A stretch of 64,000 nt of DNA from Fusobacterium ulcerans ATCC 49185 (GTDB lineage: Bacteria > Fusobacteriota > Fusobacteriia > Fusobacteriales > Fusobacteriaceae), in contig NZ_LR215979.1 in the NCBI RefSeq assembly GCF_900683735.1, forward strand, positions 2,604,001-2,668,000, given 5' to 3'. Below, piece after piece: positions 27,504-61,901 of this stretch (position 1 is the first letter of the stretch; each line of letters begins with the position of its first letter). The notes under the pieces are model-generated. The model saw nothing but the letters and a program-made list of their open reading frames with translations, was not told where the DNA came from and did no database searches. The position numbers and the translations under genes were made by a program.

Positions 27504-29039
27504 TTATTTTTTCATTAATTTTTCTAATTTATTTTTTACAACATGTACTTGTGGTCCTATTACCACCTGAAGATTTGTATCATCTAATTTTACTACTGCT
27601 ATTGCTCCAGTTGCTTTTATTTCATCTGAATCTACAACAGACATATCTTTTACAACCATTCTAAGTCTTGTGATACAGTTATCAAGAGAAACAATGTTAT
27701 CTTTTCCACCTAAAGCTTTCAGCATTCTCTCTTCATCATATCCACCTAATTTTACATTATCTCCTTCAGTTATAGCTTCTCTTCCAGGAGTTTTTAAATT
27801 AAATTTCAATATTGCATATTTAAATACTGTATAATAAACTGCAAACCATACTGCTCCTACTAGAAGAACTAAATACCATTTTGTTCTTGTTCCTTGTAAT
27901 ACACCAAATACTATAAAGTCTATAAGGTTTCCATCAGTATTTCCAATTGCTACTTTTAAAATTCCCATCATCATAAATCCAAGTCCAACCATGATACAAT
28001 GGAAAATGTATAAAACTGGTGATAAGAAAAGGAATATAAATTCTAGTGGTTCTGTTATTCCACCAATTACACAAGCTACAAGTCCAGAAGCAAGAAGTCC
28101 TTTTATTTTTTTTCTATTTTCAGGTCTTGCAGTATTATATATTGCCAAAGCTATTGCTGGAAGTCCAAACATATATGATGGCATTTTTCCTTGTGAAAGG
28201 AACTTTGTTACATTAGGATCAAGTATTCCATCAGCAAACTGTTTATAGAATATTGTAAGAGCTCCTGAAACTGTTTCTCCATTTACAATTGCCTCTCCAC
28301 CAGCTGGTGTAAATCTTATCATAGCAACTAATATATGATGTAGTCCAAATGGTCTTAACAGTCCTTCTCCAGCTCCAAAAAGGAATGGTCCAAAGGCTCC
28401 AGCTTTTCCTATCATTTTTCCTATTCCCATAATCACATTATTAAAGAAAGGCCAGATGAATGGAATTAATAAACTTACAACTCCAACTATTACTGCTGTA
28501 GCAATAGGTACAAATCTTGCTCCACCAAAGAATGCAAGTGCATCTGGAAGTTTGATTTCACAATATCTGTCATGAACTTTGTAAACGATTATACCAATTA
28601 AAACTCCACCAAGAACCCCTATATCAATACTTTGAATACCAAGAACCATAGACTGTCCTGCTGCTTTCATATTTTCAGGTGTAGCTAAAGTTCCAGTTGC
28701 TTTTAAGAAGAAATTAACTGATAGACTTGACATAGCAAATCCAACATATCCAGAAAATGCTGCTACCCCTTTATCCTGTCTTGCAAGTCCTAAAGGTATA
28801 GCCATTGCAAACATAACTGGAAGGTTCGAAAATGCAAATGAACCTATTGTTGCCATAAATTCAAAGAACACTTTTAAAATAGGATTATTTAAGAATGGAA
28901 GTATTTCAGCAGTTACTGAACTTGCAAATGAACTTCCTATCCCAAGCATAATACCACAGGCTGCTAATAGTGATACTGGCAGCATGAATGTTTTTCCTAA
29001 TCCTTGAAAAAATTCCCAAAAACTAACTTTTTTCTTCAT
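27504..29039 (-). CDS. PTS EIICB permease, maltose/glucose type (MalX-like)
   Basis: 511 residues. The N-terminal EIIC domain (about 8 membrane segments, FGLHHILVAMIRFTPAG near residue 260) is followed by a C-terminal EIIB domain with the phosphorylated Cys455 in NCITRLRM. It imports and phosphorylates a sugar with a glucose-type EIIA encoded elsewhere. The ATG at 29039 has GGAGG upstream; an earlier in-frame TTG overlaps that site. Pairing with the MalY-like gene supports the MalX label, but the sugar cannot be read from the sequence. Confidence 0.9.
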   Translation of the reverse strand: MKKKVSFWEFFQGLGKTFMLPVSLLAACGIMLGIGSSFASSVTAEILPFLNNPILKVFFEFMATIGSFAFSNLPVMFAMAIPLGLARQDKGVAAFSGYVGFAMSSLSVNFFLKATGTLATPENMKAAGQSMVLGIQSIDIGVLGGVLIGIIVYKVHDRYCEIKLPDALAFFGGARFVPIATAVIVGVVSLLIPFIWPFFNNVIMGIGKMIGKAGAFGPFLFGAGEGLLRPFGLHHILVAMIRFTPAGGEAIVNGETVSGALTIFYKQFADGILDPNVTKFLSQGKMPSYMFGLPAIALAIYNTARPENRKKIKGLLASGLVACVIGGITEPLEFIFLFLSPVLYIFHCIMVGLGFMMMGILKVAIGNTDGNLIDFIVFGVLQGTRTKWYLVLLVGAVWFAVYYTVFKYAILKFNLKTPGREAITEGDNVKLGGYDEERMLKALGGKDNIVSLDNCITRLRMVVKDMSVVDSDEIKATGAIAVVKLDDTNLQVVIGPQVHVVKNKLEKLMKK

Positions 29040-29075
29040 CTTTTCCTCCAAATATTTTTATTTTATTTTAAAAGT

Positions 29076-29104
29076 ATTATATAGTAAAGAATCCTCAAAG
29101 TTAA
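29076..29104 (-). promoter_or_regulatory. Likely promoter of the malX-malY-like operon
   Basis: Minus-strand TTAACT, 17-bp spacer, TATAAT, about 37 bp upstream of the permease ATG. The -35 is only a partial match. Confidence 0.45.
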
Positions 29105-29162
29105 TATACATAATCTTTCATATTTTTTTGAAAAAAAGTTTTACCATAAATATATAAAAATA

Positions 29163-29201
29163 AAAAAACAGCTGTCTTAAATTTTTCAACTTAATCCAGC
29201 T
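29163..29201 (-). terminator. Terminator of the diguanylate cyclase gene
   Basis: On the minus strand AGCTG..TTAA pairs with TTAA..CAGCT, followed by GTTTTTTTA; about 25 bp beyond the stop codon of the GGDEF gene. Confidence 0.65.
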
Positions 29202-29225
29202 ATCCTTCTTATAGATATTTTTTAA

Positions 29226-31133
29226 TCAGCATTTCTTCCCTTTATGAAGAGTATATCCATTTTTTCCCTTTTCTTTTGTCTGATATAAAGCTATATCAGC
29301 ATTTTTATAAATATCTTTAAATTCTTTTCCATCTTCTGGCGTAATAGCAATCCCAATACTTGCGGACATATCCCAATAAGAGGAATTATTTTCACATTTA
29401 ATATTTAATGCTTTAGATACCTCTTTAGCCTTTCTATCAACCCACTCTGTATTTATAATTGGAGTAAATACTACAAATTCATCTCCTCCAACACGTCCCA
29501 TTATAGCATTTTCTTCACCAAAACTCTCTTTAATAACTCTAGTAAATTCTTTGATGCATAAATCTCCAAACAAGTGTCCAAAATTATCATTTGCCTGTTT
29601 AAAATTATCAATATCAAAAATAAAAAAATCATATTTTTGTTCTGGTGATTCTAAAAGCATCCTATCAATAATTCTTTCTGTAACTTTTTTATTATAAAAT
29701 CCTGTCATCTCATCTAATTCTGCTTTTTGTTCCTTTTTCTTTTCTTCATCAATATTTTTTCTATATGCAAACATATGAATTGAGTCATCTTCTGGAGAAT
29801 AGAAGATATAGGCATCAACTCTCATCCAATGGTAATTCACTCCATCTTCTGTTATCATAAATTCATATCGTAAGGATTTATTCCCTTTTTTATATTCTTT
29901 AATTACATTTTCTGGAGAAAAAATATTTATATATCCTTCTCTATATTCCTCTTTTATCTGTTTATCTGCAATCACACGTAACCCTTGATCAAATGGGAGT
30001 CCTTTAGCTCCTATAGTTTCAAAATAATGCACTGTATGTTTCCCTACATATGTATTTTTAGTAATGTTCAATTCATTTATCTTATCATATAATTGCTCTG
30101 TTGATCTTCTAAAAATAGTTTCTCTTTCTTCTACTAATTTTATAATTTGTTTATTAAAATTTCTGATTATAGAAGTAATTATAACAAGTATAATCAAAAT
30201 AATAAATGTAATTATAAGACATGTCTGAAAAATGCTATTTCTTATTTCAGAAATCAATTTACCTGTATTCTGCCTGACAATGAGATGCCAAGATAGTTCT
30301 GGAATATAACGAGTTACTATATAATCTTTATCAATAGTATTTTCACTAGAATTTATCCACATTTCCAAATTTACAGAATCCTCTTTCCAAGCTAGCATCT
30401 CTTTCTTGATATTAGTTTGTCCATAAATCTCAAACCAGTTTTTCTCTTCATATCCTGTATAAGTAGTTGATACCTCTATAGTTCCTTTTTTATTGATTAA
30501 ATAAGTTTCTAGTTTAAATTTCTTTTCATAGCTTAATAATAATTCTTTCAAATGTTCTATCTGTACCCCAACACCTATAATACCCAAAACATTTCCCTTA
30601 GAATCTTTTACTTTGCAATTTACAAAAACTGTAATGGCATTATCAGCACCCTTCACTTGATCATTGTCTATGTTTAAAGAATACTCCTGATCATTTTTTA
30701 AAAGATTAAAAAACCATGTATTTTCAGGATCATTTTCAATTAAAATACGGTCTAACCCAGTAAAAGTATAATAATTTTTTGTAGCAGTAGAAGCTAAAAA
30801 TACTGAATCAAAACCATATTTTTCTTGATATGTTTCTAAATAATTTCTTGTAGTTTGAATATAGTCTTCATCCCTAAAATATTTTTCTTCTTCCAATAAA
30901 TGTTCTACCAATAAACTGTCATGCGCCATTGTTAAAGAAGCATTTACTGATTTTGTGAACATAGATGTTAATTGATAATAGATTCCTTCTGTAGTAAGAG
31001 AAGATACCTGCTCTACATTATCTAAAGATGCCCTATAATTTGCTTGGTAGCTAAATACTGCTGTAAGTGAAAATCCTACTATCAAAATAACACTAATCAA
31101 TATATTAGTTCTTAAAAGCTTATTGCCTTTCAA
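29226..31133 (-). CDS. Membrane diguanylate cyclase with Cache-type sensor, PAS and GGDEF domains
   Basis: 635 residues making cyclic di-GMP from GTP. Order: transmembrane helix about 9-28, an extracytoplasmic sensor of about 270 residues with a dCache-like pattern (LNIDNDQVKGADNAI..VNCKVKD, IIGVGVQ), second helix about 305-325, a PAS-like region, and a C-terminal GGDEF domain with an intact GGDEF at 549-553 and SASIGIA later. The inhibitory RxxD site expected five residues before GGDEF is absent, so product inhibition may be weak. The start is TTG behind GGGGGAG. The ligand is unknown. It lies between a PTS operon and a PRD regulator, all on one strand with separate signals. Confidence 0.92.
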   Translation of the reverse strand: MKGNKLLRTNILISVILIVGFSLTAVFSYQANYRASLDNVEQVSSLTTEGIYYQLTSMFTKSVNASLTMAHDSLLVEHLLEEEKYFRDEDYIQTTRNYLETYQEKYGFDSVFLASTATKNYYTFTGLDRILIENDPENTWFFNLLKNDQEYSLNIDNDQVKGADNAITVFVNCKVKDSKGNVLGIIGVGVQIEHLKELLLSYEKKFKLETYLINKKGTIEVSTTYTGYEEKNWFEIYGQTNIKKEMLAWKEDSVNLEMWINSSENTIDKDYIVTRYIPELSWHLIVRQNTGKLISEIRNSIFQTCLIITFIILIILVIITSIIRNFNKQIIKLVEERETIFRRSTEQLYDKINELNITKNTYVGKHTVHYFETIGAKGLPFDQGLRVIADKQIKEEYREGYINIFSPENVIKEYKKGNKSLRYEFMITEDGVNYHWMRVDAYIFYSPEDDSIHMFAYRKNIDEEKKKEQKAELDEMTGFYNKKVTERIIDRMLLESPEQKYDFFIFDIDNFKQANDNFGHLFGDLCIKEFTRVIKESFGEENAIMGRVGGDEFVVFTPIINTEWVDRKAKEVSKALNIKCENNSSYWDMSASIGIAITPEDGKEFKDIYKNADIALYQTKEKGKNGYTLHKGKKC

Positions 31134-31190
31134 GATATTTGCTCCCCCTTTAATATCATTCTAAAATTATTTACTCTTATAGATTCTATA

Positions 31191-31219
31191 ATTATAACAA
31201 ACAATTCATCAAAAGTCCA
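31191..31219 (-). promoter_or_regulatory. Likely promoter of the diguanylate cyclase gene
   Basis: Minus-strand TGGACT, 17-bp spacer, TATAAT, about 58 bp upstream of the TTG start. Confidence 0.5.
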
Positions 31220-31285
31220 TTAAATAATTTTGTTTTAAAGAGGGAAAACGAAATCAAAATATTAAATACTAATACTTTCTATTTT

Positions 31286-33061
31286 TCATTCTTTTAAAAG
31301 AATTTTTATTTTATTTTTTATATCTTCTGGTTTATCCAACTCTATTATTTCATTAAAAAATTTCTTCTTTTCTATCAATTTTATCAATTCAGATATGACT
31401 TTTAAATGTTCAATTTTATTTCTTGCAGCCAGCAGAAACAAAACATCTGCATCTTCTTCATCATCTACTTTTATTCCATGTTTTGAAATTATAAGTGTTA
31501 TTCCAGGTTTTAAACAATTTTCTTTCTCTTTATCATAACAGAACAATATTCTTTTATCAATAAAGAGATATCTTCCAAATTTTTCTACCATATCTTTAAG
31601 ATTATATATACTTTTCTCTTTTATACATCTTTCTTTCAATAAAATATTTAATCCAATTTCCAGAGCTTCTCCAAAAGTTATTCTTTCATCAGAAATATAT
31701 ATACGATTTCTTCCTAAAAGTCTAATAAGTCCATAATCTGTGCTTTCTTCTCTGTCATCATCTATAAACATTCCAAATTTTTCTTTTATACTCTCAGCCA
31801 GGAGATCATTATCTATATCTCTTGCATTTTGCTGAATCAGTTTTAAAAGCTCTTTTAAAGATATTTTTTTATTTTTCTTTTCCTCTAAATATTCCTCTAT
31901 ATATTTCGAAACATAAAATATCTCTTCATCTCTCAAGGGTTCTTTAAGATAATGATCATTTTTCTTGATTATTTCTTTCACCTTAGTGAAAATTTCTATA
32001 TTTATTTCACTGAAATCAAGGGTTTTATTTAAATAGAAATTATTCTTTATTCTGTAAATAGCTGGAAGAAGATATTTCATAAGTTTATCTATAAGTTCTC
32101 TCTCTTTAAGGAGATGTGTTCCTATTTCTATATCCATATTCTCTAATACTCTAGAAATAAACCTCTCTAATATAAGAATATTTTCAGAAAAAGTATCATT
32201 ATAATATCCACTTAAAAAATATTCTGTAAGATGGAGCATTTCATATTCATGATTTTTATCTATAACTTTTTCAAGAACTTCCTTTATTTTTTTATATTCT
32301 TCAAGCTTTCTTAAAAAATCACTATTATTCTTCTGAGTTATTATATGTCCATTTTTTATCCTTTCAAATGTAGCTATCAAGTATATTCCAATCACATTTT
32401 TAAATTCATCAGTAAAATGAGCCTCTAATTTATCTTCTATTTCATCTATTACATCAGCTATTTTTCTAATATCATATCCTTTTACATACTCAGCTATTAT
32501 TTTCTGCTCCTCTTTTTCACTGATATATTTTTTTCTTATAAAAACTATCTCTCTATTTTTTATCTCAATATGATTCAACATTTTTAATAATTTTAAATGC
32601 CTTAACTTCTTTTCTTTTCCTGCTATATCCATTTTATTTTCATCTCTATAGAAATAAAGTTCAAATTCAGCAAGATAATTTTCTAAATCTTTGATATCTT
32701 TTTTTATAGTAGTTCTGCTTACTTTTAGGTCTGCTTCCATCTCTGATATTTTCACATTATCTCTAAACAGATAATTTATAAGGATATATTCTTCTCTCTC
32801 TTCCTGAGAAAAAACATACATACTCATATCTAAAACTTCTACAAATTTTTCAAGTTCAATATCAGCTATAGAAAATTCAAGATTTCCCTTTTTTATCATT
32901 ATTTCTGGAAGTTTCATTTTTTTAAGATAAAAATTTATATTTTCTACACTGTATCTTATATTTCGTTCACTGACATTATATTTTTCTGCCAGAGAACTTA
33001 TAGGAAAAATATTATTATTTATTTTTTCTAAAAGTTTTATATCTTTTCTATTTAAACTCAT
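31286..33061 (-). CDS. PRD-containing BglG/LicR-type regulator with C-terminal EIIA-like domain
   Basis: 591 residues. The N-terminus has two helix-turn-helix segments (SSLAEKYNVSERNIRYSVENI, and MEADLKVSRTTIKKDI near residue 115). Next come two PTS-regulation domains with histidines in HLTEYFLSGYY and elsewhere. The C-terminus resembles EIIA type 2, with the candidate phospho-His in ISKHGIK. I saw no clear EIIB domain. Such proteins are sugar-operon activators switched by PTS phosphorylation. GGAGGG precedes the ATG. The nearest PTS genes are the malX-like permease and the lone EIIB, but no target is indicated by sequence. Confidence 0.82.
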   Translation of the reverse strand: MSLNRKDIKLLEKINNNIFPISSLAEKYNVSERNIRYSVENINFYLKKMKLPEIMIKKGNLEFSIADIELEKFVEVLDMSMYVFSQEEREEYILINYLFRDNVKISEMEADLKVSRTTIKKDIKDLENYLAEFELYFYRDENKMDIAGKEKKLRHLKLLKMLNHIEIKNREIVFIRKKYISEKEEQKIIAEYVKGYDIRKIADVIDEIEDKLEAHFTDEFKNVIGIYLIATFERIKNGHIITQKNNSDFLRKLEEYKKIKEVLEKVIDKNHEYEMLHLTEYFLSGYYNDTFSENILILERFISRVLENMDIEIGTHLLKERELIDKLMKYLLPAIYRIKNNFYLNKTLDFSEINIEIFTKVKEIIKKNDHYLKEPLRDEEIFYVSKYIEEYLEEKKNKKISLKELLKLIQQNARDIDNDLLAESIKEKFGMFIDDDREESTDYGLIRLLGRNRIYISDERITFGEALEIGLNILLKERCIKEKSIYNLKDMVEKFGRYLFIDKRILFCYDKEKENCLKPGITLIISKHGIKVDDEEDADVLFLLAARNKIEHLKVISELIKLIEKKKFFNEIIELDKPEDIKNKIKILLKE

Positions 33062-46145: not shown

Positions 46146-46163
46146 AAGGCGGACAACCGCCTT
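46146..46163 (-). terminator. Terminator of the orphan EIIB gene
   Basis: On the minus strand AAGGCGG and CCGCCTT form a perfect GC-rich 7-bp stem with a 4-base loop and TTTTTTTG after it, overlapping the stop codon. Confidence 0.88.
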
Positions 46164-46551
46164 ACTTATTTTTTTCTCTTATATCATTTATCTCTTCAGC
46201 TAACTTTTCAGCTTTTAATCCAATAATGATATGAATTTTTTTATCAGTTAATTTTATAACTTTATGAGCTCCTAAAATAATTATTCTCTTTTCATCCAAC
46301 AGAGAACCATCTTTCATTATTACTCTTATTCTTGTCATGCAAGGGTCTACACTTACTATATTTTTTTCTCCACCTAAAGCTTTGATATATAGTTTTCCCA
46401 TTCCAGAAAATTTCTTTTCTTCAAGTTTATCCAAATCAACACAATTTACTCTTTTTACTTTAGTGATCAGTTTATATTTTCTGATAATTATAGCTGCTAC
46501 AACTACTATGATTATTCCAATTATCCAATATAACCACTTGGTCGACTCCAT
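46162..46551 (-). CDS. Membrane-anchored stand-alone PTS EIIB domain
   Basis: 129 residues. An N-terminal transmembrane helix (about 6-24, WLYWIIGIIIVVVAAIII) and a basic stretch lead to a glucose/sucrose-type EIIB domain. The phosphorylation-site cysteine is in VDPCMTRIRVIMKDG, matching NCITRLRM of the EIICB permease at 27.5-29 kb. No EIIC or EIIA domain is attached or adjacent. GGAGG precedes the ATG, and it has its own near-consensus promoter and a strong terminator, so it is an independent unit. It may pass phosphate to a separate permease or act as a sensor. Its role is unknown. Confidence 0.85.
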   Translation of the reverse strand: MESTKWLYWIIGIIIVVVAAIIIRKYKLITKVKRVNCVDLDKLEEKKFSGMGKLYIKALGGEKNIVSVDPCMTRIRVIMKDGSLLDEKRIIILGAHKVIKLTDKKIHIIIGLKAEKLAEEINDIREKNK

Positions 46552-46614: not shown

Positions 46615-47655
46615 TTATGATATTATTCCTCCACCAAGTACTAAATTTTTATAATACAACACCAAATGCTGTCCTGGAGCAGTCTGGGGATTTTCTTCAT
46701 CAAACTCAAAGTAGAGTTTTTCATTCTCAAATAAAATTTTTCCACTTGTACCAAAGCTGGAAAATCTAGGCCTTCCAATAATACTTTTATCTAAAATATC
46801 ATTTATTTTTATAGAAAGCTTATATTTTTTTAGCTCTACCCTTTTTTGGTACAATTCTTTATATTCTCCAATAGTTATTTCATTTTTCTCTTTATTTATT
46901 TTTGTTATAAAATATGCTCTTGGAAGTTTAAGTCCTAATCCTCTTCTCTGTCCAATTGTATATAACTGATATCCTTCATGTTTTCCCATAATATTTCCAT
47001 TATTATCTATAAAGTTTCCCTTTTTTATTTTATCTCCTAAATTTTTTCTAAGAAATTCTATATATCCTTCCTTAGCAAAGCATATTCCCTGACTATCTCC
47101 TTTATCATGTACTTCTAGTCCAATATTCTTGGCTATCCCTCTTATCTCCTTTTTTTCATAAGAATGCAAAGGGAATATAAGCCTTGATATTTTATCATTA
47201 TCCAGTCTGTAAAGCATATAGCTTTGATCTTTTTTGGGGTCATAGGAAACTTTCAGTAGCTCTCTTTTAAACTCTTCTGAATATTCCACAGAACAATAAT
47301 GCCCTGTAGCTACAAAATATGCTCCCTCTTCATCTGCAGTTTCAAAAAGAACTCTCATTTTTACTCTTTCGTCACAGATAACACAGGGAGAAGGAGTTAT
47401 TCCTTGAGAATATCCCTCTAAAAAATCATCTATAACTTCCTTTTGGAATAATTCTTCTATATCTATTGTTCTATGTTTTATTCCAAGAAAGTCACATATC
47501 CTTTGAGCAGCTTTTATTTCTTCCATGAGAGATTTTTCCTTCTTATGATTCAATGTTACACCTATGACTTCATATCCTTGTTCTCTCAAAAGATAGGCTC
47601 CCACAGAAGAATCTACTCCACCACTCATTCCTATAACTGCCCTTTTTCTATTCAT
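46615..47655 (-). CDS. mnmA: MnmA, tRNA 2-thiouridylase
   Basis: 346 residues, thiolating U34 of tRNAs for Glu, Gln and Lys. Marks are the PP-loop GMSGGVDSS, the first catalytic cysteine in SPCVICDE and the second in DSQGICFA. The start at 47655 follows AGGAG at 9 bases; earlier codons overlap the upstream channel gene. The start overlaps the potassium-channel stop by 8 bp. It is the last gene of the permease-birA-channel-mnmA run. Confidence 0.95.
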   Translation of the reverse strand: MNRKRAVIGMSGGVDSSVGAYLLREQGYEVIGVTLNHKKEKSLMEEIKAAQRICDFLGIKHRTIDIEELFQKEVIDDFLEGYSQGITPSPCVICDERVKMRVLFETADEEGAYFVATGHYCSVEYSEEFKRELLKVSYDPKKDQSYMLYRLDNDKISRLIFPLHSYEKKEIRGIAKNIGLEVHDKGDSQGICFAKEGYIEFLRKNLGDKIKKGNFIDNNGNIMGKHEGYQLYTIGQRRGLGLKLPRAYFITKINKEKNEITIGEYKELYQKRVELKKYKLSIKINDILDKSIIGRPRFSSFGTSGKILFENEKLYFEFDEENPQTAPGQHLVLYYKNLVLGGGIIS

Positions 47656-48586
47656 TATTCTTTTCTCCTGATTTATCAGTTTCTTTTGTCTTATCTCCAT
47701 CATCTTTTTGACCTATCTGAAAATTTAATATTCCTGAACTCAAAGTTATTCCTAAAGAAAAGTTTAAAAGGAATATCCCAGTCAATGCTTCTATTATAAC
47801 AAAGAACTGCCCTAAAAATTTCAATGGATAGATATCTCCATATCCCAAAGTTGTCAATGTGACAAAACTAAAATATATATGTTTAAAATAAAAATACAGA
47901 GTAGTATTTACCCCTTCCATTCCATGAAAAGCTTTTCCATCATAATAGATATTTATTACAGAATAAAGTGCACCAAAACTTATTCCCAAAGTTATATATG
48001 TCATCAGCGTAATTATTACATCACTGCTTTTCACTTTTCTCTTTCTAAGAATTATATCTGTTACACAGTACTTTATAAGTACAATATGGCTGGTAAAAAG
48101 AAGCATTATATTTACAGCAAAAACTAGGAAATAAACATCTTCATACTCATTTCCTATTTTTTCTATATTAAGTCCAAAAATAACTATTGTAATTGGTATA
48201 CATACAATATAGTAAAGTATCAATATAATTGCTTTTAATGCCCCATCTTTAAAGATAAGATTTTTTCTTCCTATGACAATTATTGGAAATATACTCACAA
48301 AAAGTACTGGAATCTGTTTGAAAGTTTGAAAGTTAAGTTTAAATATATTTATAGACTTCATACTGCATAACTGAGATATTATAGGAAGAAAAACAGATAT
48401 AGCTGCTGTCATTTTTATTAGAAAAATTATAAAATCATAGTTTTCACTTTTTTTAGCTATATCTATTATCATCCTCATCTTAGATTTAAAGTCGAGGTTT
48501 TTCTTTACTATATCCACTACATATCCAAGATCCAAATCTTCAGTAAGCATTCTGAATAACTTATCTTTTATACTATTCAATTTCAT
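47648..48586 (-). CDS. Potassium channel-like protein (two-helix pore)
   Basis: 312 residues. Several membrane segments lie between residues 55 and 285. The pore near residue 248 holds the potassium selectivity filter TTLGYGD, followed by a last helix and a hydrophilic charged tail (QKDDGDKTKETDKSGEKNNE). No RCK or cyclic-nucleotide domain is present. Upstream helices are not a clear voltage sensor. The gene overlaps birA by 14 bp and mnmA by 8 bp. It lies in the same run as two ion-permease paralogues, which may link it to cation balance. Confidence 0.85.
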   Translation of the reverse strand: MKLNSIKDKLFRMLTEDLDLGYVVDIVKKNLDFKSKMRMIIDIAKKSENYDFIIFLIKMTAAISVFLPIISQLCSMKSINIFKLNFQTFKQIPVLFVSIFPIIVIGRKNLIFKDGALKAIILILYYIVCIPITIVIFGLNIEKIGNEYEDVYFLVFAVNIMLLFTSHIVLIKYCVTDIILRKRKVKSSDVIITLMTYITLGISFGALYSVINIYYDGKAFHGMEGVNTTLYFYFKHIYFSFVTLTTLGYGDIYPLKFLGQFFVIIEALTGIFLLNFSLGITLSSGILNFQIGQKDDGDKTKETDKSGEKNNE

Positions 48587-49295
48587 TTTTCATCCTGCTT
48601 ATATGTATTTCTCCTATGTCAAAGAGTTTTTTTGTTCCAGATATTTCTACTTCCAATCTTCCATCTTGTGCTATCTCATCTGCCATCCCAGTAACTGTTC
48701 CATTTGTACTTACTATATTTATTTTCTTTCCTTTGAGGTAATTTCTGCTGTTAATCTCATCTAATATGTATTTCCATTCTCCACCACAAAATCTTCTGTA
48801 ATATTTTTTAAATTCATCTATCACAGTGAAGATAATATCCTCAATTATATAGTTCTTTTTTGTCTTACTTGTAAGAGATACAGCTATTTCTTCTGCTGCT
48901 CCCATTTCCTTATTATTTACATTTATTCCTATTCCTATGATAAAAAAATCATTTACTTTTTCTACTAGTATTCCTGATAATTTCTTATCATCAAGATAGA
49001 TATCATTTGTCCATTTGAATTTCAAATCCAGTTCCTCTATCCTTTTAATTCCTTTCAACACAGATATCCCAGTAACAAGAGGAAGTTTAGAGTAATCCTC
49101 TATTGATATATCTTTCTCAGCTTTTAAAGCAAAACTAAAGAGAGCCATTCCTTTACTGGAAAACCAATTATTTCCTCTTCTCCCTCTTCCTTTAGTTTGA
49201 ATTTCAGCTATTGCTAAATCAAAATTTTCAATATCTTCTTTATCTTTGAGATAATCACTTGTAGAATCTATGCTTTTAAATCGGAATATTCGCAT
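48573..49295 (-). CDS. birA: BirA, biotin-protein ligase (catalytic domain only)
   Basis: 240 residues, attaching biotin to carboxylase and decarboxylase subunits. The biotinyl-AMP loop is GRGRRGNNWFS near residue 36, with KFKWTNDIYLDDKKLSGIL following. The N-terminal DNA-binding domain of E. coli BirA is absent, so it should not repress biotin genes. AGGAGG precedes the ATG. It is placed between the second permease and the potassium channel genes, overlapping the latter. Confidence 0.94.
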   Translation of the reverse strand: MRIFRFKSIDSTSDYLKDKEDIENFDLAIAEIQTKGRGRRGNNWFSSKGMALFSFALKAEKDISIEDYSKLPLVTGISVLKGIKRIEELDLKFKWTNDIYLDDKKLSGILVEKVNDFFIIGIGINVNNKEMGAAEEIAVSLTSKTKKNYIIEDIIFTVIDEFKKYYRRFCGGEWKYILDEINSRNYLKGKKINIVSTNGTVTGMADEIAQDGRLEVEISGTKKLFDIGEIHISRMKNEIE

Positions 49296-49312: not shown

Positions 49313-50593
49313 CTACATATATCTTACATATAGATAAATAGTAGCTAACAATAATGTTTGAAAAGCTATAAGTCCTCCAAATTTAAAGAATTTAAAGAAA
49401 TCTATTTTACATCCAGCTTTAGCAGCAGCTCCTACAGCAACAACGTTTGTAGCTGATCCAAGCATAGTGATGTTTCCACCTAAACACGATCCAAATGAAA
49501 GAGCCCACCAAAAAGCTTTTGGATCTCCTATTTTATCAAATGTAGGCACCATTACTCCAAGTATTTTAGAAACAGTAGCAGCATTAGCAACATTTCCTAT
49601 TATAGATGTAAATCCAGCAGAAAGCCAAGTTACAGCTATGACAGCAAGGTCAAATTTACCTGAAGTTATTTTTATAAGTTTATCTCCAATCATGTTTATT
49701 ATGTTCAAATTCTCTATCCCTTTTATCATCATAAACAAACCTATAAAGAAAAACAGAGTTTCCCATTCTACATTCTCAAATATCTCTTTTGGTTTTCTTT
49801 TTGCTATAACAACTAAGAATATTGCTCCAGAAAGAGATATAATTGCCAAACCTTTATTGATAAAGTTATTTAAAACAAATCCTATCAATACGAGAGTAAA
49901 TATTACTGCTGCCTGTTTCAATAGTTTGGGATCTTTCAAACTTCTTGAAGAATCCAATTCCATTATTCTTGCTTTTAGCTCATTTGGTACTACCATATGT
50001 CTTCCATAGATGAAATAAACATTTGCTATAAGCAGTGCCATTGAAAGTACAGCTACTGGTGCTGTATTAAAAAGAAATTCATTGAATCCAAGATTTCCTT
50101 CAGCTCCTATAATCAATTGAGTAGGGTCACCAATCAATGTAGCCAGTCCACCAATATTAGCAGACATAACTTCTGTTATTATAAATGGGAAAGGATCTAA
50201 TTTTAATTGTTTTGCCAGCAATATAGATACTGGTGCCATCAAAAGGATAGTTGTAACATTATCTAAGAATGCAGAACAAAGAGCAGTTACTATTGCCAGT
50301 AAAACTATCAATCTAAAAGGTTCTCCTCTTACCAACTGAGCTACTTTAATAGCAAACCATTGGAACACACCTGTTTCAGACACTAGCAAAACTATTATCA
50401 TCATACCTATTAAAAGAAATAAAATCTCCAGTCTTTCAGAAATAGCTGTCAAGGCATCTTCTTCATTTATTATCCCTACTAGTGCCATTACAAGTCCACC
50501 TATCATTGTTGCCCATGGTCCAGGGATTTTATCTGTTATCATCAAATAGAATACTGTAAAAAATACAACTAATCCTATCAGCATATATATCAT
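49313..50593 (-). CDS. ArsB/NhaD-superfamily permease, paralogue 2
   Basis: 426 residues, about 11 membrane segments. The ion-transporter superfamily pattern includes DNVTTILLMAPV near residue 120 and GDPTQLIIGAEGNLGF near residue 163. It is clearly a paralogue of the permease at 51.6-52.9 kb, being alignable throughout (ETGVFQWFAIKVAQ versus ETGIFQWVAIKVAQ), but the GDPPN motif is changed to GDPTQ. Relatives are Na+/H+ antiporters, arsenite permeases and anion transporters; the substrate is unknown. AAGGAGG precedes the ATG. The upstream gene is an EIIA-CBS protein. Confidence 0.85.
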   Translation of the reverse strand: MIYMLIGLVVFFTVFYLMITDKIPGPWATMIGGLVMALVGIINEEDALTAISERLEILFLLIGMMIIVLLVSETGVFQWFAIKVAQLVRGEPFRLIVLLAIVTALCSAFLDNVTTILLMAPVSILLAKQLKLDPFPFIITEVMSANIGGLATLIGDPTQLIIGAEGNLGFNEFLFNTAPVAVLSMALLIANVYFIYGRHMVVPNELKARIMELDSSRSLKDPKLLKQAAVIFTLVLIGFVLNNFINKGLAIISLSGAIFLVVIAKRKPKEIFENVEWETLFFFIGLFMMIKGIENLNIINMIGDKLIKITSGKFDLAVIAVTWLSAGFTSIIGNVANAATVSKILGVMVPTFDKIGDPKAFWWALSFGSCLGGNITMLGSATNVVAVGAAAKAGCKIDFFKFFKFGGLIAFQTLLLATIYLYVRYM

Positions 50594-50637
50594 AATTTTT
50601 CCTCCTTATTTTAATTCTTTCCCCAAAGATCAAGAGT

Positions 50638-51564
50638 TTAAATATGAAGTACTTTCTTGATTATATCTGATCTTCTTATCATTCCATAATATTTTCCTTC
50701 ATCTAGTACATACAATCTTGTAAGTCCTTTATTTACCATAATAAAACATATCTCCATAATAGGAGTTTTTCTATCTATTTTTACTCTCTCATCTACTCTG
50801 TACAATTTTTCAATAGTTGTTGTTGTTTCATTTACCAGATATTCTTCAAAAGGTTCTCCTACTGTTAAGAAATTAAGATCTCCCATCAAAGAAAGATAAT
50901 CAGGCATACCAAAATCAATAAGTTCTCTTTCAGTTATTTCTCCTAGAAACATACCATCTTTATCAACAACTGGAAGTCCGCTTATCTGTTCAAGTATAAG
51001 CCTTTTTGCTATCTCCTCCAAAGTATTATCTGGAGTAGCTGGCTGTATATCTGGACTCAATACATCTTCTGCAATTATTCTGTGGTCTATTTCAATATTA
51101 GATTCTTGAATATATTCCACTATTTTATTTGGATTTTTTTCCTGCTTTATCTGCTCTAAAAGACTTTTTCTCTTTAGAGCCATTTTAGAAACGGCACTCA
51201 TCACCTTTAATATATTTTTATTTTTTAATACATCTGAAATAATCAAAAATACAAGTTTAACTTTATCCGTTCTATGTGTGGCTGCAATTTCAACCTCTAT
51301 AGGTTTTTCAAGTATACCAATAGCAACAACAAAGTCATTGAAATTTTCTATTCTGGCATGTGGTATTGCTATTCCATTTCCCATTCCAGTAGATATTTCC
51401 TCTTCTCTTTTAATTACTGATTTTACAATCATATCTTTTAACTCATTTATCTTCTTATCCTTCAGAGATAATCTTTCTACCATCTCTGTGATAATTTCTT
51501 CAGGAGTTGTTCCTTTTAAATCAGTAAAAATAAACTGTGGATCTAAATAACTTGAAAACTTCAT
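50638..51564 (-). CDS. PTS EIIA (type 2) domain fused to a CBS pair
   Basis: 308 residues. Residues 1-150 form a fructose/nitrogen-type EIIA domain with the phosphorylation histidine His69 in GIAIPHAR. Residues 160-308 hold two CBS motifs (ISGLPVVDKDGMFLGEITE and TRLYVLDEGKYYGMIRRSD), which usually bind adenine nucleotides. It is encoded between two paralogous ArsB/NhaD permeases with short gaps, so it most likely regulates them in answer to PTS phosphorylation and energy state. That is an inference. AGGAGG precedes the ATG. Confidence 0.88.
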   Translation of the reverse strand: MKFSSYLDPQFIFTDLKGTTPEEIITEMVERLSLKDKKINELKDMIVKSVIKREEEISTGMGNGIAIPHARIENFNDFVVAIGILEKPIEVEIAATHRTDKVKLVFLIISDVLKNKNILKVMSAVSKMALKRKSLLEQIKQEKNPNKIVEYIQESNIEIDHRIIAEDVLSPDIQPATPDNTLEEIAKRLILEQISGLPVVDKDGMFLGEITERELIDFGMPDYLSLMGDLNFLTVGEPFEEYLVNETTTTIEKLYRVDERVKIDRKTPIMEICFIMVNKGLTRLYVLDEGKYYGMIRRSDIIKKVLHI

Positions 51565-51583
51565 ATATTCCTCCTTTAAAACT

Positions 51584-52861
51584 TTAATACCTTAGATTAA
51601 TATAAACAACACTTAAAATCACTGACTCAATAACAATCAGTATCCCCAATTTGAAGAAATCCATAAAACTTATTTTTACTCCTGCTTTTCCTGCAATAGA
51701 TACCCCAACTATATTAGCTGGTGCTCCTACCAATGTCATGTTTCCACCTAGACAGGCTCCCAAAGATAATGCCCACCACAAGACATCTGTATGTCCTGTA
51801 AAATTAGGTACAATACTTGCTATAATTTTTGAGAAAGATAGAGTATATGGTACTGATCCAAGTATTGGTGACAATAATGATGAAATCAATACTATAACTG
51901 TTCCAGTTTTTTCCAGATTTCCATCTGTAAATCTGATTATCAATTCCCCAATTTTTGCAACTACTCCAAGCTTATCTACTCCTTCAACTAAAACAAATAA
52001 CCCTCCAAAGAAGAACAGAGTTTCCCATTCCACTTTTCTGTATATCTCTTCTGGACTTTTTTTGCTTATAGTAAGCAAAATAACTGATCCAGTTATAGAT
52101 ATAACTGCAAGCCCTATATTTGTTACCATGTTTGTTAAAAATCCTATAAGAATTATTCCAAACAAAACACATGACTGTATTAGAAGTTTTTTGTTCTTTA
52201 TGCTTCTGTTAGGTTCCAAGTCCATTATGCTGGCTCTTAATTCTCTAGATACAGTAAACTTTTTTCCAAAAAGCAGCCTAGCTGTAATTAAAAGAACTAT
52301 CATATTTACTACTACAATTGGTGTTAGATTTATCAAAAAATCATTGAAATCCAAACCACCAAGGCTTGCTATGATAAGATTTGGCGGATCACCTATCATT
52401 GTAGCTGTTCCTCCTATATTACAGGCAAATATCTGCACCATTATAAATGGAAACGGATCTATCTTCAGCTTTTTAGCTAATAAGACAGTGACTGGCACTA
52501 TAAGAAGAATAGTTGTAACATTATCTAGGAATGCTGAACATACAGCAGTCACCACTGATAACATCATCAGTATCTTCATTGGATCCCCTTTTGCCTGCTG
52601 AGCAACTTTTATTGCTACCCACTGGAAAATACCTGTTTCAGACATCACTTCAACTACCATCATAAGCCCCATTAAAAGCAACAAAATCTCTAAATTTCTT
52701 CCTATGGATTCCAAAGCCTCTTCTTGATTCATAACCCCTATCAGCACCATTAAACTTCCTCCAATGATAGCTGTAAGCGACTTAGGCTGTTTTCCAAAAA
52801 GAATAAAATAAAAAGATACCACGAAAATTAATAAACCTGCAATAAGTTTGATGTTTATCAC
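51584..52861 (-). CDS. ArsB/NhaD-superfamily permease, paralogue 1
   Basis: 425 residues, about 11 membrane segments, with DNVTTILLIVPV and the family-typical GDPPNLIIASLGGLDF. It is first in the run permease 1, EIIA-CBS, permease 2, birA, channel, mnmA. The start is GTG behind GGGGG. The GDPPN form is closer to NhaD and ArsB proteins than its paralogue. Possible roles are Na+/H+ exchange or oxyanion export; nothing in the sequence decides this. The opposite strand has a long open frame here, judged to be a shadow. Confidence 0.86.
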   Translation of the reverse strand: MINIKLIAGLLIFVVSFYFILFGKQPKSLTAIIGGSLMVLIGVMNQEEALESIGRNLEILLLLMGLMMVVEVMSETGIFQWVAIKVAQQAKGDPMKILMMLSVVTAVCSAFLDNVTTILLIVPVTVLLAKKLKIDPFPFIMVQIFACNIGGTATMIGDPPNLIIASLGGLDFNDFLINLTPIVVVNMIVLLITARLLFGKKFTVSRELRASIMDLEPNRSIKNKKLLIQSCVLFGIILIGFLTNMVTNIGLAVISITGSVILLTISKKSPEEIYRKVEWETLFFFGGLFVLVEGVDKLGVVAKIGELIIRFTDGNLEKTGTVIVLISSLLSPILGSVPYTLSFSKIIASIVPNFTGHTDVLWWALSLGACLGGNMTLVGAPANIVGVSIAGKAGVKISFMDFFKLGILIVIESVILSVVYINLRY

Positions 52862-52955
52862 CTTATTCCCCCTTATATATAAAAAATTTTAAAAACTTTT
52901 TACATGGTTTATTTTACCATTTTCAATAATTAGAAATATTTATAAAAAGAAGTAA

Positions 52956-52994
52956 GGATTCTCTATATAGATATACTAACCTAATAAAGAATCC
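52956..52994 (-). terminator. Probable terminator of the coaE-to-fakAB operon
   Basis: On the minus strand GGATTCT and AGAATCC form a 7-bp stem enclosing a 25-base AT-rich loop, followed by TTACTTCTTTTTAT; 12 bp beyond the stop of the DAK2-DegV gene. Confidence 0.55.
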
Positions 52995-53005
52995 CCTGCT
53001 TTCAA

Positions 53006-55519
53006 TTATCTTATTTTTGACATCATTCCAAAACCAAATACAGGACCTGAATGAGAACCAATAGTTGCACCAATTTCAAATCTTCCTTTATATTCAACTT
53101 TTTTAGAATTGTCACACATATTTTTTATTGCATCAGCTTTTGAAAGTTCTTTATTTGTTCCTCCCCATGCTGTATACAGGATTATACTATTTTTCTTGCT
53201 TTCCGCTTTTATTAATTTTTCCATGTATGAAAAGGCACCTCTATCTCCAAAAGTTTTGGTTTCAATAGTTACTTCTCCATTTTCTAGTTTCAGTATAGGT
53301 TTTACTTTTAATAATCCTCCTATAACAGAAGAAGCTCTTCCTATTCTTCCACCTTTTTCCAAGAATGAAAGGTCATTTACAACAAAGTATAACTTCATTT
53401 TTTCCTGCATCTCATCAAGCCTTTCAAGTATAGCTTCATACTTTGCTCCAGCTTTTACCATTCTTGCTGCCTCTAATACCTGATGACCAAGTACAAGAGT
53501 AACAGCTTTTGAGTCTACTATAGCTATATCTTCTGCTCTATTCAGCATTCCTTTTGCCACTCTTGCTGCCTGCTGTGTCCCACTTAATCTGCTTGAAATA
53601 TGAATAGATATGATTTTTTTATAACCTTTATTGAATAATTTTTCATATAGTTCTTTAAACTCAGCTGGTGAAGGCTGAGAAGTTTTTGGAGCTGTATTTT
53701 CTGTAAGAAGTCTTTTCCAGAACTCTCTTTTAGAAATATCCACTCCATCTCTATAATAATTATCATTTAATTTTATTTTCAGTGGAATAATATTTATAGA
53801 CAGATCTCCTATGAATTCTTTTGTTAAATCTGATGTAGAATCAGTAACTATCGCCACTTCTGGCATATTAGGATCTCTATTTTCTATATAAATATAATAT
53901 GGATAATTTCCCTGATTCGCTTTAAATTCGTTGTATCTTACTCCATTTGTTTCTTTTAATACTTCATCTGCTTCTTCAGTTGATTCATCCCCAATTACAG
54001 CAAATATATTCAATGTATTTCCATTTATATATTTTTTATAAACCTCTTTTATAAGAGAAGGCAAATCCTCTGACTTTTCTTTTATTTTTCCATTTACGAG
54101 GGCTATGTAATTACCTTCTTCTATCTGAAGTTCATCAACTTTTGTATTTCTTACAGCTTTTGTTATTTCAATAGAGTAGTTTCTGCCTGTCTGTTTCAAA
54201 ATATCTTCAATTTTTTCATCTTTATTCTTTATAACATAATGTCCTTCCAACATTGATTTTGTTTCAAGGACCATAATTTCTTTATTAGATCTTTCTGCTG
54301 CTATCTTTGCTGCTGAGATGATATTTTTATTATTTGGAAGAATAACTATCTTTTCAGCACTTATTCTTTTCAATCCATCTTCTATATCTGCTACACTTGG
54401 GTTCTGTGTCTGTCCCCCAATAAGTACAGCAGCAGCTCCATCATCAAGAAATAAATTTCCTAGTTCCTTGTTATCTACAATAGCATAAAAAGCAACTGGC
54501 TCTGCATTCTCACTTCTTACAAATACTTTTTCTGTAGATTCCATTTGATAAGATTCATTTTCAGAAATAAGAAGATTCTGATGCTGTATTTCCATATTTT
54601 CTATTTTTATATTGTTAAGATTTCCTAACATTCCAGCGATTTCCAATACCTGTCCTGGATGATTTGTATGTATATGTGTTTTTGTCTTTTTAGCCGTTTG
54701 TGCACATACAAGAGAATCTCCTAAAGGGCTTATTTTCCCTTTATATTCTTCTAAATCAAAACTTCCTGATTCAATTATAAATTCTGTACAATATTTAAAT
54801 TTTATATCTTCTATTATCTGTGTTGTATTTTCAAGTCTTTCTTTTCTTTTTGCTCTCGATTTTACTATTCTTTCCAAATCCTTCAACATTTCTGGATCAG
54901 TTACAGACTTTTCAAATCCCTCAAGAACATAGAATATTCCCTTTCCTCCAGCATCAACTACTCCTGCTTCTTTTAATTTAGGAAGCTGATTAGGTGTATT
55001 TTCAACTGCTTCATAGGCTACATTTTTTAGATGTACAAGAAAAAGAATAAAATCATCCTTATCTCCTTTATAAGCCACTGCTTCCTCTGCCACCCTTCTG
55101 ATGACAGTAAGCATTGTTCCTTCTACTGGTTCAGAAACAGCCTGATATGCCTTTTCTTTTGCTAAAACAAAAGCCTGAATAGTATCATCTACTGTAATTT
55201 CCTCTTTATCTCTTACTCCATTTAAAAAACCTTGTACAATTTGAGATAAGATAGTTCCTGAATTTCCTCTTGCTCCCAATAACACTGCTTCTGATACTCT
55301 ATCAGCAAGTTCTTTCATACTTGGTTCATGATTCATTTTTATCAATTCATTTTCCACTGCCTGAAGTGTCATGGACATATTTGTTCCTGTATCACCATCT
55401 GGTACTGGATAAACATTTAAATCATTTAATACATCTGCATATTTTGAAAGCCATCTGCTTGCAGCTATTAAAAGTTTAGTCAATCTTATAGAGTTAAGTA
55501 CCTTTACCTCTATTTTCAT
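53006..55519 (-). CDS. Fused DAK2 (FakA-like) and DegV (FakB-like) protein, putative fatty acid kinase
   Basis: 837 residues. Residues 1-200 are a DAK2/DhaL kinase domain with the ATP-Mg motif VPDGDTGTNM at 39-48 and GARGNSGTILSQ. The middle (about 220-550) matches the YloV/FakA C-terminal region. From about 560 a full DegV lipid-binding domain follows, with AIVTDSTSDLT and SQPSPAEF. In Gram-positive bacteria FakA phosphorylates fatty acids held by a separate FakB. Here both functions appear joined in one chain. GGAGG precedes the ATG. It ends an operon starting at coaE and follows an XRE-cupin regulator. Confidence 0.88.
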   Translation of the reverse strand: MKIEVKVLNSIRLTKLLIAASRWLSKYADVLNDLNVYPVPDGDTGTNMSMTLQAVENELIKMNHEPSMKELADRVSEAVLLGARGNSGTILSQIVQGFLNGVRDKEEITVDDTIQAFVLAKEKAYQAVSEPVEGTMLTVIRRVAEEAVAYKGDKDDFILFLVHLKNVAYEAVENTPNQLPKLKEAGVVDAGGKGIFYVLEGFEKSVTDPEMLKDLERIVKSRAKRKERLENTTQIIEDIKFKYCTEFIIESGSFDLEEYKGKISPLGDSLVCAQTAKKTKTHIHTNHPGQVLEIAGMLGNLNNIKIENMEIQHQNLLISENESYQMESTEKVFVRSENAEPVAFYAIVDNKELGNLFLDDGAAAVLIGGQTQNPSVADIEDGLKRISAEKIVILPNNKNIISAAKIAAERSNKEIMVLETKSMLEGHYVIKNKDEKIEDILKQTGRNYSIEITKAVRNTKVDELQIEEGNYIALVNGKIKEKSEDLPSLIKEVYKKYINGNTLNIFAVIGDESTEEADEVLKETNGVRYNEFKANQGNYPYYIYIENRDPNMPEVAIVTDSTSDLTKEFIGDLSINIIPLKIKLNDNYYRDGVDISKREFWKRLLTENTAPKTSQPSPAEFKELYEKLFNKGYKKIISIHISSRLSGTQQAARVAKGMLNRAEDIAIVDSKAVTLVLGHQVLEAARMVKAGAKYEAILERLDEMQEKMKLYFVVNDLSFLEKGGRIGRASSVIGGLLKVKPILKLENGEVTIETKTFGDRGAFSYMEKLIKAESKKNSIILYTAWGGTNKELSKADAIKNMCDNSKKVEYKGRFEIGATIGSHSGPVFGFGMMSKIR

Positions 55520-60775: not shown

Positions 60776-61864
60776 TTAGTCTAAAAAGTTTTCATTAAAA
60801 TAAGCAAGCAGTGACTTCATTACTTTTTCTGTTCCACCTACTGTGTATAAATCTATTCCTGCTACCCCTTTTCCACATTTATATTCTAAGCTTACTATCA
60901 TCTGTTCATGATAATTCTGAGCTAATGAGAATTTTGAAAAAGCTATATTTCTATCAGGGTTATAATATACAACTTTTAATTTCTCTACATATGGACAGCA
61001 TTTCAATGAATTTACTATATTCTCTAATTCTTCAGTTACTTTTATACTTCCTGCCATTTCCTTATCTGCTGGAGCACGTTTGCTTGTACTTAAAGGAAGA
61101 TTACTTGTTGAAGTCATTCTCTTCATGTAAAATTCTCCCATAGCAGAAAATTCAGCATACTTTTCTCCATTCTCTTCTTCAAATTCTATAAAGTTTTTTA
61201 AATAAGGACTTTTTATTAAAATATCTTTAATTTCAGATTCTTTAACTTTTTCTTTTCTATCTATTAATTTAAAGAATTCCTTATTTTCCAGATAAAAATC
61301 ATAATCTATTTTCATTGGTAAGGGTGATATTTCTGTCACTTCATTGAATTCATCAAACATAAAATATGACTTTAAATGAAGAAGCTGTGCCATAAGTCCT
61401 ACTAGAAATATTTCTGCCTTATATCCTCCAACTGTACATACACTGACATTTAAACTATTTCCTATTTTATTAACTATATTTCTTATTTCTTCAGTAAGTC
61501 CTTTAAGGCCAAGAGTTTTAAATTCTTTATGATTTCTTTTGTTCAAGTTATGAATAATTCTTTTTTCTACTATTTTAGCTATATTTTTTTTAAGGATAAA
61601 CTCTTCAAGAACATCTCCAGCCAATTTTCCATTTTCTGTATCATGAATTATGAGAAATATTCTTTTTCCAGAAAATATTTTTTTATCCATAAGATTTTCC
61701 AGTGCTATTATTTCTGCACCATATCTCCTATCTCTAAAATCTTTTATATTTTCCTTTTCATAGTACCCAAGTATATCTTCTTTAGTTATATTTTCTTTCT
61801 TTGGGTTATTGGCAATGTAATTTTCTACAAGGCTAGTTCCCACAGTCATAATAATGTTGTCCAT
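60776..61864 (-). CDS. Orphan CARF-domain protein (Csm6/Csx1-like N-terminus, unassigned C-terminal domain)
   Basis: 362 residues with the start at 61864 (GGAGG upstream). Residues 1-175 look like a CARF domain of the APE2256/TIGR02619 type: the first strand and loop MTVGTSLVEN, and the second ligand loop VCTVGGYKAE, followed by SPLPMKID. Such domains bind cyclic oligoadenylates made by type III CRISPR complexes. Residues about 195-255 look like a helical linker or winged helix. The last 100 residues form an alpha/beta domain (KLKVVYYNP, MIVSLEYKCG) that I cannot assign; no HEPN R-x4-6-H motif is seen there. It has its own promoter and terminator. No cas gene or array lies in the window. Confidence 0.72.
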   Translation of the reverse strand: MDNIIMTVGTSLVENYIANNPKKENITKEDILGYYEKENIKDFRDRRYGAEIIALENLMDKKIFSGKRIFLIIHDTENGKLAGDVLEEFILKKNIAKIVEKRIIHNLNKRNHKEFKTLGLKGLTEEIRNIVNKIGNSLNVSVCTVGGYKAEIFLVGLMAQLLHLKSYFMFDEFNEVTEISPLPMKIDYDFYLENKEFFKLIDRKEKVKESEIKDILIKSPYLKNFIEFEEENGEKYAEFSAMGEFYMKRMTSTSNLPLSTSKRAPADKEMAGSIKVTEELENIVNSLKCCPYVEKLKVVYYNPDRNIAFSKFSLAQNYHEQMIVSLEYKCGKGVAGIDLYTVGGTEKVMKSLLAYFNENFLD

Positions 61865-61901
61865 TATGAGTTCCTCCATTCTGAATGTTTTTCTACCTAA
61901 T

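Follow-up and report, generated by a model that had tools for sequence, protein, structure and literature searches.

Recurrent pairing of an EIIA–CBS protein with ArsB/NhaD-like permeases suggests a switchable transporter module in Fusobacteriota and distant bacteria

What is the role of a soluble protein that joins a PTS EIIA domain to a CBS pair and is encoded between two related membrane transporters? The question is raised by a locus of Fusobacterium ulcerans, which we analysed within a window of 64,000 nucleotides (G000:C1:2604001-2668000, inside a 3.84 Mb one-contig genome; the positions below are those of this window). As the initial annotation described, three open frames are packed in order on the minus strand: P1 (51584–52861; 425 amino acids, GTG start), an ArsB/NhaD-like permease of the IT superfamily; E (50638–51564; 308 amino acids), in which a PTS EIIA-2 domain (residues 6–154) is fused to a CBS pair (residues ~163–306); and P2 (49313–50593; 426 amino acids), a permease paralogous to P1. 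The gaps are 19 bp between P1 and E and 44 bp between E and P2. P1 probably opens a new transcription unit, because a terminator-like hairpin (52925–53000, minus strand; fold −18.5 kcal/mol, z −2.8) precedes it in the interval between P1 and a FakA/DegV-like gene. At 53006–55519 (minus strand) a single chain of 837 residues combines a FakA-like fatty acid kinase with a DegV/FakB-like binding protein, and at 60776–61879 (minus strand) a protein with a Cas_APE2256 (CRISPR-associated) domain is encoded amid housekeeping genes. On its 3′ side P2 is followed, with gaps of nearly nil, by birA (biotin–protein ligase; 48573–49295, minus strand, 17 bp from P2), a potassium-channel-like gene (47648–48586, minus strand; Ion_trans_2 in Pfam, overlapping birA by 14 bp) and mnmA. 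The channel noticed earlier is thus part of the same run; it stands next to birA in only 6 of the fetched loci, and birA is a common neighbour of the locus that lies outside the module. An Rfam search of the whole window gave no riboswitch or other RNA match at gathering scores.

Pfam comparison assigned the first part of E to the PTS EIIA type 2 (fructose/mannitol/Ntr) family (PTS_EIIA_2, 94.3 bits against a gathering score of 27) and found two CBS stretches (68.1 bits against 24), the number that makes up a CBS (Bateman) module. E fell below both NCBIfam equivalog cut-offs for PtsN (EIIANtr), with 47.1 of 138.7 bits and 45.2 of 221 bits. The phospho-histidine previously read from the sequence, His69 (codon 51360–51358, minus strand), is present and, together with Arg53 and Glu54, invariant in 72/72 Fusobacteriota sequences and 17/17 from outside the phylum (89/89 in total). 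CBS motifs of the Thr-containing G-x-x-T-x-x-E type are ribose-binding; CBS1 of E retains G-x-x-T-x-x-E, and CBS2 has G-x-x-R-x-x-D, without the Thr. Adenylate binding by the pair, as judged from these motifs, is only plausible. The linker between the two CBS stretches (P-x-Y/GEPFEEY, residues 221–242; 50904–50839, minus strand) is strongly conserved at P221, F232, G236–E240 and Y242, and it is poorly confident in the monomer model (about 61–64).

An intact EIIA active site would also suit E if it served an ordinary sugar PTS as its EIIA, with EIIB and EIIC located elsewhere. The initial annotation held that neither partner was near, which was inexact for EIIB, because a lone GLC-type EIIB of 129 amino acids (PTS_EIIB domain, E 9.4e-13) is encoded at 46162–46551 on the same minus strand, 2.8 kb past P2; for EIIC, none was found among the scanned proteins near this gene. 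The EIIB has an N-terminal hydrophobic stretch and keeps its cysteine, with a promoter-like site on its 5′ side, a terminator-like site on its 3′ side and no adjoining EIIC. The closest EIIC detected is that of a GLC-type EIICB (27504–29051), which belongs to a minus-strand series at 27504–33061 made up, in order, of a 591-residue protein with a C-terminal EIIA-2 domain (31286–33061), a GGDEF protein (29226–31133) and the EIICB itself. However, an EIIB of the GLC family partners a different EIIA type from that of E, and a sugar PTS leaves the CBS pair, the linkage to permeases and the split-gene forms described below unexplained. We therefore regard this explanation as very improbable.

P1 and P2 align over 424 residues with 46% identity, and Pfam places each with CitMHS/ArsB (CitMHS, 247.5 and 281.3 bits against a gathering score of 31.9), which bears out their description as two paralogous permeases of the ArsB/NhaD type; the Pfam score and the fold shared in Foldseek comparison make them members of the IT superfamily (CitMHS/ArsB/DASS fold). 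The fold is also common to the DASS/SLC13 proteins VcINDY and NaS1, although P1 and P2 stay under the family cut-off (83 and 103.4 of 198.6 bits), and they are likewise under that for the NhaD Na+/H+ antiporter in NCBIfam (34.4 and 33.9 of 80 bits). For P2, the predicted model (pLDDT 90) had ArsB as its top Foldseek match (TM 0.89), and ArsB was also the best solved-structure relative of the permeases (E 1.4e-31). No long cytoplasmic tail for docking is seen in the model.

This likeness raises the possibility of arsenite/antimonite efflux by P1 and P2. In ArsB (PDB 10tp), according to PMC13381914, As(OH)3 is held at Asn111, Asn337 and Ser380, and H+ coupling is carried by Asp112 and Asp148. 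The permeases share with it a pseudo-symmetric hairpin–loop core in which their N112 corresponds to Asn111, and P2 retains the equivalents of all three binding residues. However, both remain far under the NCBIfam cut-offs for ArsB (at most 118.2 bits against 415–760). Moreover, in 123 aligned permease sequences, the two H+-coupling acids are not retained: the equivalent of Asp112 is Val in 123/123 and that of Asp148 is Asn in 120/123, with Asp at the place of Asn158 in all. The permeases have other acids, their D111 and D156. The equivalent of Asn337 is Asn in 58/58 P2 sequences and Ser, Ala or Val in 27/27 P1 sequences, and that of Ser380 is Ser in 56/58 P2 and Ala in 23/27 P1. P1 and P2 thus differ in their pockets, and neither passes as an ArsB pump. 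We rejected the arsenite-pump assignment, which appears highly unlikely, on the family cut-offs and the H+-coupling residues.

The signature loops of the two proteins also differ. P1 has GDPPN (52393–52379) and a C-half GSVP (from 51859), and P2 has GDPTQ (50131–50117) and a C-half GNVAN (from 49597), all on the minus strand, confirming the change from GDPPN to GDPTQ. GDPTQ was found in 58/58 P2 sequences and nowhere else in the aligned set, and so is a fixed signature of one clade, not decay. This makes the divergence proposed earlier plausible as a functional one, but an ion or a substrate is not assignable from it.

To see how the three genes are arranged in relatives, we searched 98 Fusobacteriota genomes, counting full or partial copies of E; a locus search of contigs with E had given only 3 close Fusobacterium loci, and the broad survey was made by genome-wide search instead. 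E was detected in 65/98 genomes and the permease in 66/98, and every genome with E also had a permease (65/65). A permease without E was found in G032 alone, and there each of the two permease copies runs into a contig edge. E touches a permease gene in 62/65 genomes, at a median gap of 23 nt, the exceptions being G048, G049 (at a contig end) and G063. In all, 86 places of E, fragments at contig ends included, were distributed as E–P2 (46), P1–E–P2 (10), E with another GDPPN permease, Px (10; E–Px 8 and Px–E 2), P1–E (3), P2–E (1), E–P1 (1) and E alone (15), and 34/118 permease places lay away from any E. These place counts exclude matches to the EIIA part alone (best E about 1e-18), permease matches below ~35% identity other than fragments of close copies (e.g. 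G063:C13, G043:C2:634690 and G047:C37) and the fragments G057:C181 and G046:C248, and split matches of one gene were merged (E of G027; permeases at G047:C15, G019:C7, G057:C185 and G057:C158). The order P1–E–P2 occurs in only 10/65 E genomes (G000, G025–G029 and G033–G036, with the E frame broken in G027). The two-paralogue cassette first proposed is thus not the conserved unit: the second permease is unlinked in most relatives, and E with one permease is not. The conserved unit is E plus one permease, and the second permease is therefore read as a later addition. In single lineages the module can decay, since in G047 (L111, L112) the E next to a P1 copy is degraded and the P2 next to an intact E is broken.

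The survey also contains copies of E with no adjacent permease, as second copies in G002, G014, G004, G005, G006, G009, G010 and G012 and as the only copy in G048 and G063. At ~7.2–8.8 kb of five loci from one genus (L041–L044 and L046), a permease-less second EIIA–CBS copy is located between unrelated-looking genes of 330 and ~121 amino acids. The 10 orphans that contig ends do not explain, most of them second copies, are what might be expected if E were a general PTS/energy regulator, PtsN-like with several targets, whose place beside a permease reflects operon history rather than direct control. Such a regulator is the main rival to a dedicated one, and it would gain further from the run cupin–FakA/DegV–birA–mnmA, within which E lies in many genomes and by which it may be carried. 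However, the E–permease pair is intact at other places (e.g. in G004, G005, G017, G053 and G059).

Genomes outside the phylum bear on the same choice. A profile of E built from an alignment was searched in 389 genomes, 291 of them outside Fusobacteriota, and at E ≤ 1e-30 it matched 82/389 overall and 17/291 outside. In 9/17 of the latter, a count that includes kin (G114 and G261 of one genus, G237 and G374 of one family), a GDPPN permease follows E directly (G366, G237, G261, G114, G374, G248, G241, G130 and G165); E is at a contig end in G254 and not adjacent to a permease in 7. The permease profile, at E ≤ 1e-60, matched 117/389 genomes and 51/291 outside the phylum, where it was present in 12/17 genomes with E compared with 39/274 others (Fisher p 8e-7). 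The remaining 5/17 had no permease at this threshold, which again would suit a general regulator, whereas the recurrence of the pair in unrelated genomes with different neighbours argues against it.

Separate genes point the same way. We read the permease neighbourhood in 36 of the 51 outside permease genomes, the rest having lower-scoring, unlisted places, and scanned for split forms 30 permease loci (28 genomes) drawn from the best-scoring listed places without an adjacent E. Separate EIIA and CBS genes were found at 4, a CBS gene alone at 6 (G179, G188, G357, G119, G326 and G222) and neither at 20. The order is EIIA, CBS, permease in G190 and G328; EIIA, CBS, permease, permease in G217; and EIIA, permease, CBS, permease in G354. 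G217 and G354, both outside the phylum, thus each have two permeases, a parallel to P1 and P2. Pfam confirmed both domains in G190 and G217 and the CBS domain in G354, G179 and G326, and the active-site histidine is present in 4/4 separate EIIAs. The CBS likeness of a neighbour in G341 was unconfirmed by Pfam and was set aside, as was a candidate second module copy in the F. ulcerans genome (G000:C1, ~804–808 kb), where lone EIIA and CBS genes form a run without a permease and the CBS protein lacks the P-x-Y linker. The start of this linker, P-x-[YF], occurs in 10/10 separate permease-linked CBS proteins; of the 24 CBS proteins in 6 genomes, the 4 linked to a permease carry it and the others do not. 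The inter-CBS linker may thus be a docking site. Parts that are fused in one lineage and split neighbours in another, beside permeases of one kind, provide good evidence that EIIA, CBS and permease act together. Given the adjacency, the rarity of P1–E–P2, the outside E–permease pairs and the split forms, the core is best read as an old EIIA, CBS and permease module that was fused and duplicated in Fusobacteria. The convergence of separate EIIA and CBS genes upon the same permease also tells against a general regulator, which we judge unlikely.

We favour the reading, at a probability of about 0.62, that E is a soluble protein dedicated to regulating ArsB/NhaD-like elevator permeases, with EIIA and a nucleotide-sensing CBS pair in one chain; a sensor–transporter partnership that recurs in distant bacteria suggests a switchable transporter. 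Adjacency, co-occurrence, recurrence outside the phylum, split genes, the invariant His69 and HPr strengthen it. HPr was present in 23/23 E genomes tested and in 301/389 genomes (96/98 in the phylum, 205/291 outside), and outside the phylum in 17/17 E genomes compared with 205/291 overall (p 0.002, uncorrected for kinship). The counterpoints are the orphan copies, the 5/17 outside E genomes without a permease, 39 outside permease genomes without E, the lack of a long permease tail and a CBS2 without Thr. The regulatory role proposed in the initial annotation thus gains support from the adjacency (62/65, and 9/17 outside), split genes, His69 and HPr, but its two-permease wording does not hold and the adenylate binding that it proposed is only plausible. 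Most likely, E would gate the permeases by both phosphorylation and nucleotide binding. Since His69 is invariant and HPr co-occurs, HPr~P would be the phosphoryl donor to His69; by analogy with PtsN–YcgO, unphosphorylated and/or ligand-loaded E would dock on the permease from the cytoplasmic side, perhaps through the inter-CBS linker, and alter its activity, the direction of control being likewise an inference. As for the ligand, a c-di-AMP cyclase is present in 18/19 module genomes tested compared with 11/14 controls, which allows c-di-AMP, possibly, and no more. Our guess is that the cargo, an inorganic ion or a small anion, would be moved by H+-coupled exchange.

Phylogenetic analysis placed 101 Fusobacteriota permeases in one clade (0.94) and P2 in one clade (0.85), with P1, P2 and a copy from G044 in a common clade (0.98) within Fusobacteriaceae. 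The C-half position that is G333 in P2 is G in 27/27 P1 and 58/58 P2 sequences; canonical Fusobacteriota permeases carry D (12) or N (3) there in 15/15, and outsiders carry D in 15/22. Tree and alignment show that the permease was duplicated in Fusobacteriaceae to give P1 and P2, both without the C-half acid, and that P2 also fixed GDPTQ. Loss of both D111 and the C-half acid or Asn was seen in 0/123 sequences, and all three that lack D111 have the C-half D; because loss events are few, the retention of one acid should be taken as a pattern for testing rather than a rule. A bolder proposal, which we hold to be quite doubtful, is that the E-linked permeases are a family with pseudo-symmetric acids (L-D-N at N-half D111 and D-N at the place of P2 G333), one of which may be shed by a lineage but never both, and that P1 and P2, as carriers with a single acid, have an altered coupling stoichiometry and function together, perhaps as a heterodimer, under one regulator that senses both PTS phosphorylation and a nucleotide, which may be c-di-AMP. 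If true, the carrier would be switched jointly by carbon and nucleotide state.

Known systems offer parallels for each half of E. In E. coli, the K+/H+ antiporter YcgO is a target of PtsN, whose unphosphorylated form binds to it and inhibits it (PMC11808508). As proposed for E, an EIIA there controls a non-PTS ion transporter by its phosphorylation state. However, PtsN has no CBS pair and E has one, and YcgO, a CPA1 antiporter, has a cytoplasmic tail, whereas the partner of E belongs to the IT superfamily and is encoded beside its regulator. CBS pairs are described as transporter switches in MgtE, CorB and a c-di-AMP-gated ABC importer in a review (PMC10710835). A nucleotide-binding CBS pair is proposed as the switch in these as it is predicted to be in E, although there the pair lies within the transporter, and in E it belongs to a soluble partner fused to EIIA. 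Searches of the literature with limited sets of terms found no description of an EIIA–CBS regulator with a recurrent transporter partner of the ArsB/SLC13 fold. Transporter switches of either kind, EIIA or CBS pair, are already known, and the joined regulator with such a partner would be the new part. If the reading of E as a dedicated regulator is right, it would define a three-part system coupling sugar/PEP state and nucleotide level to a solute carrier, and would give a route to the substrate of one branch of ArsB/NhaD-like permeases.
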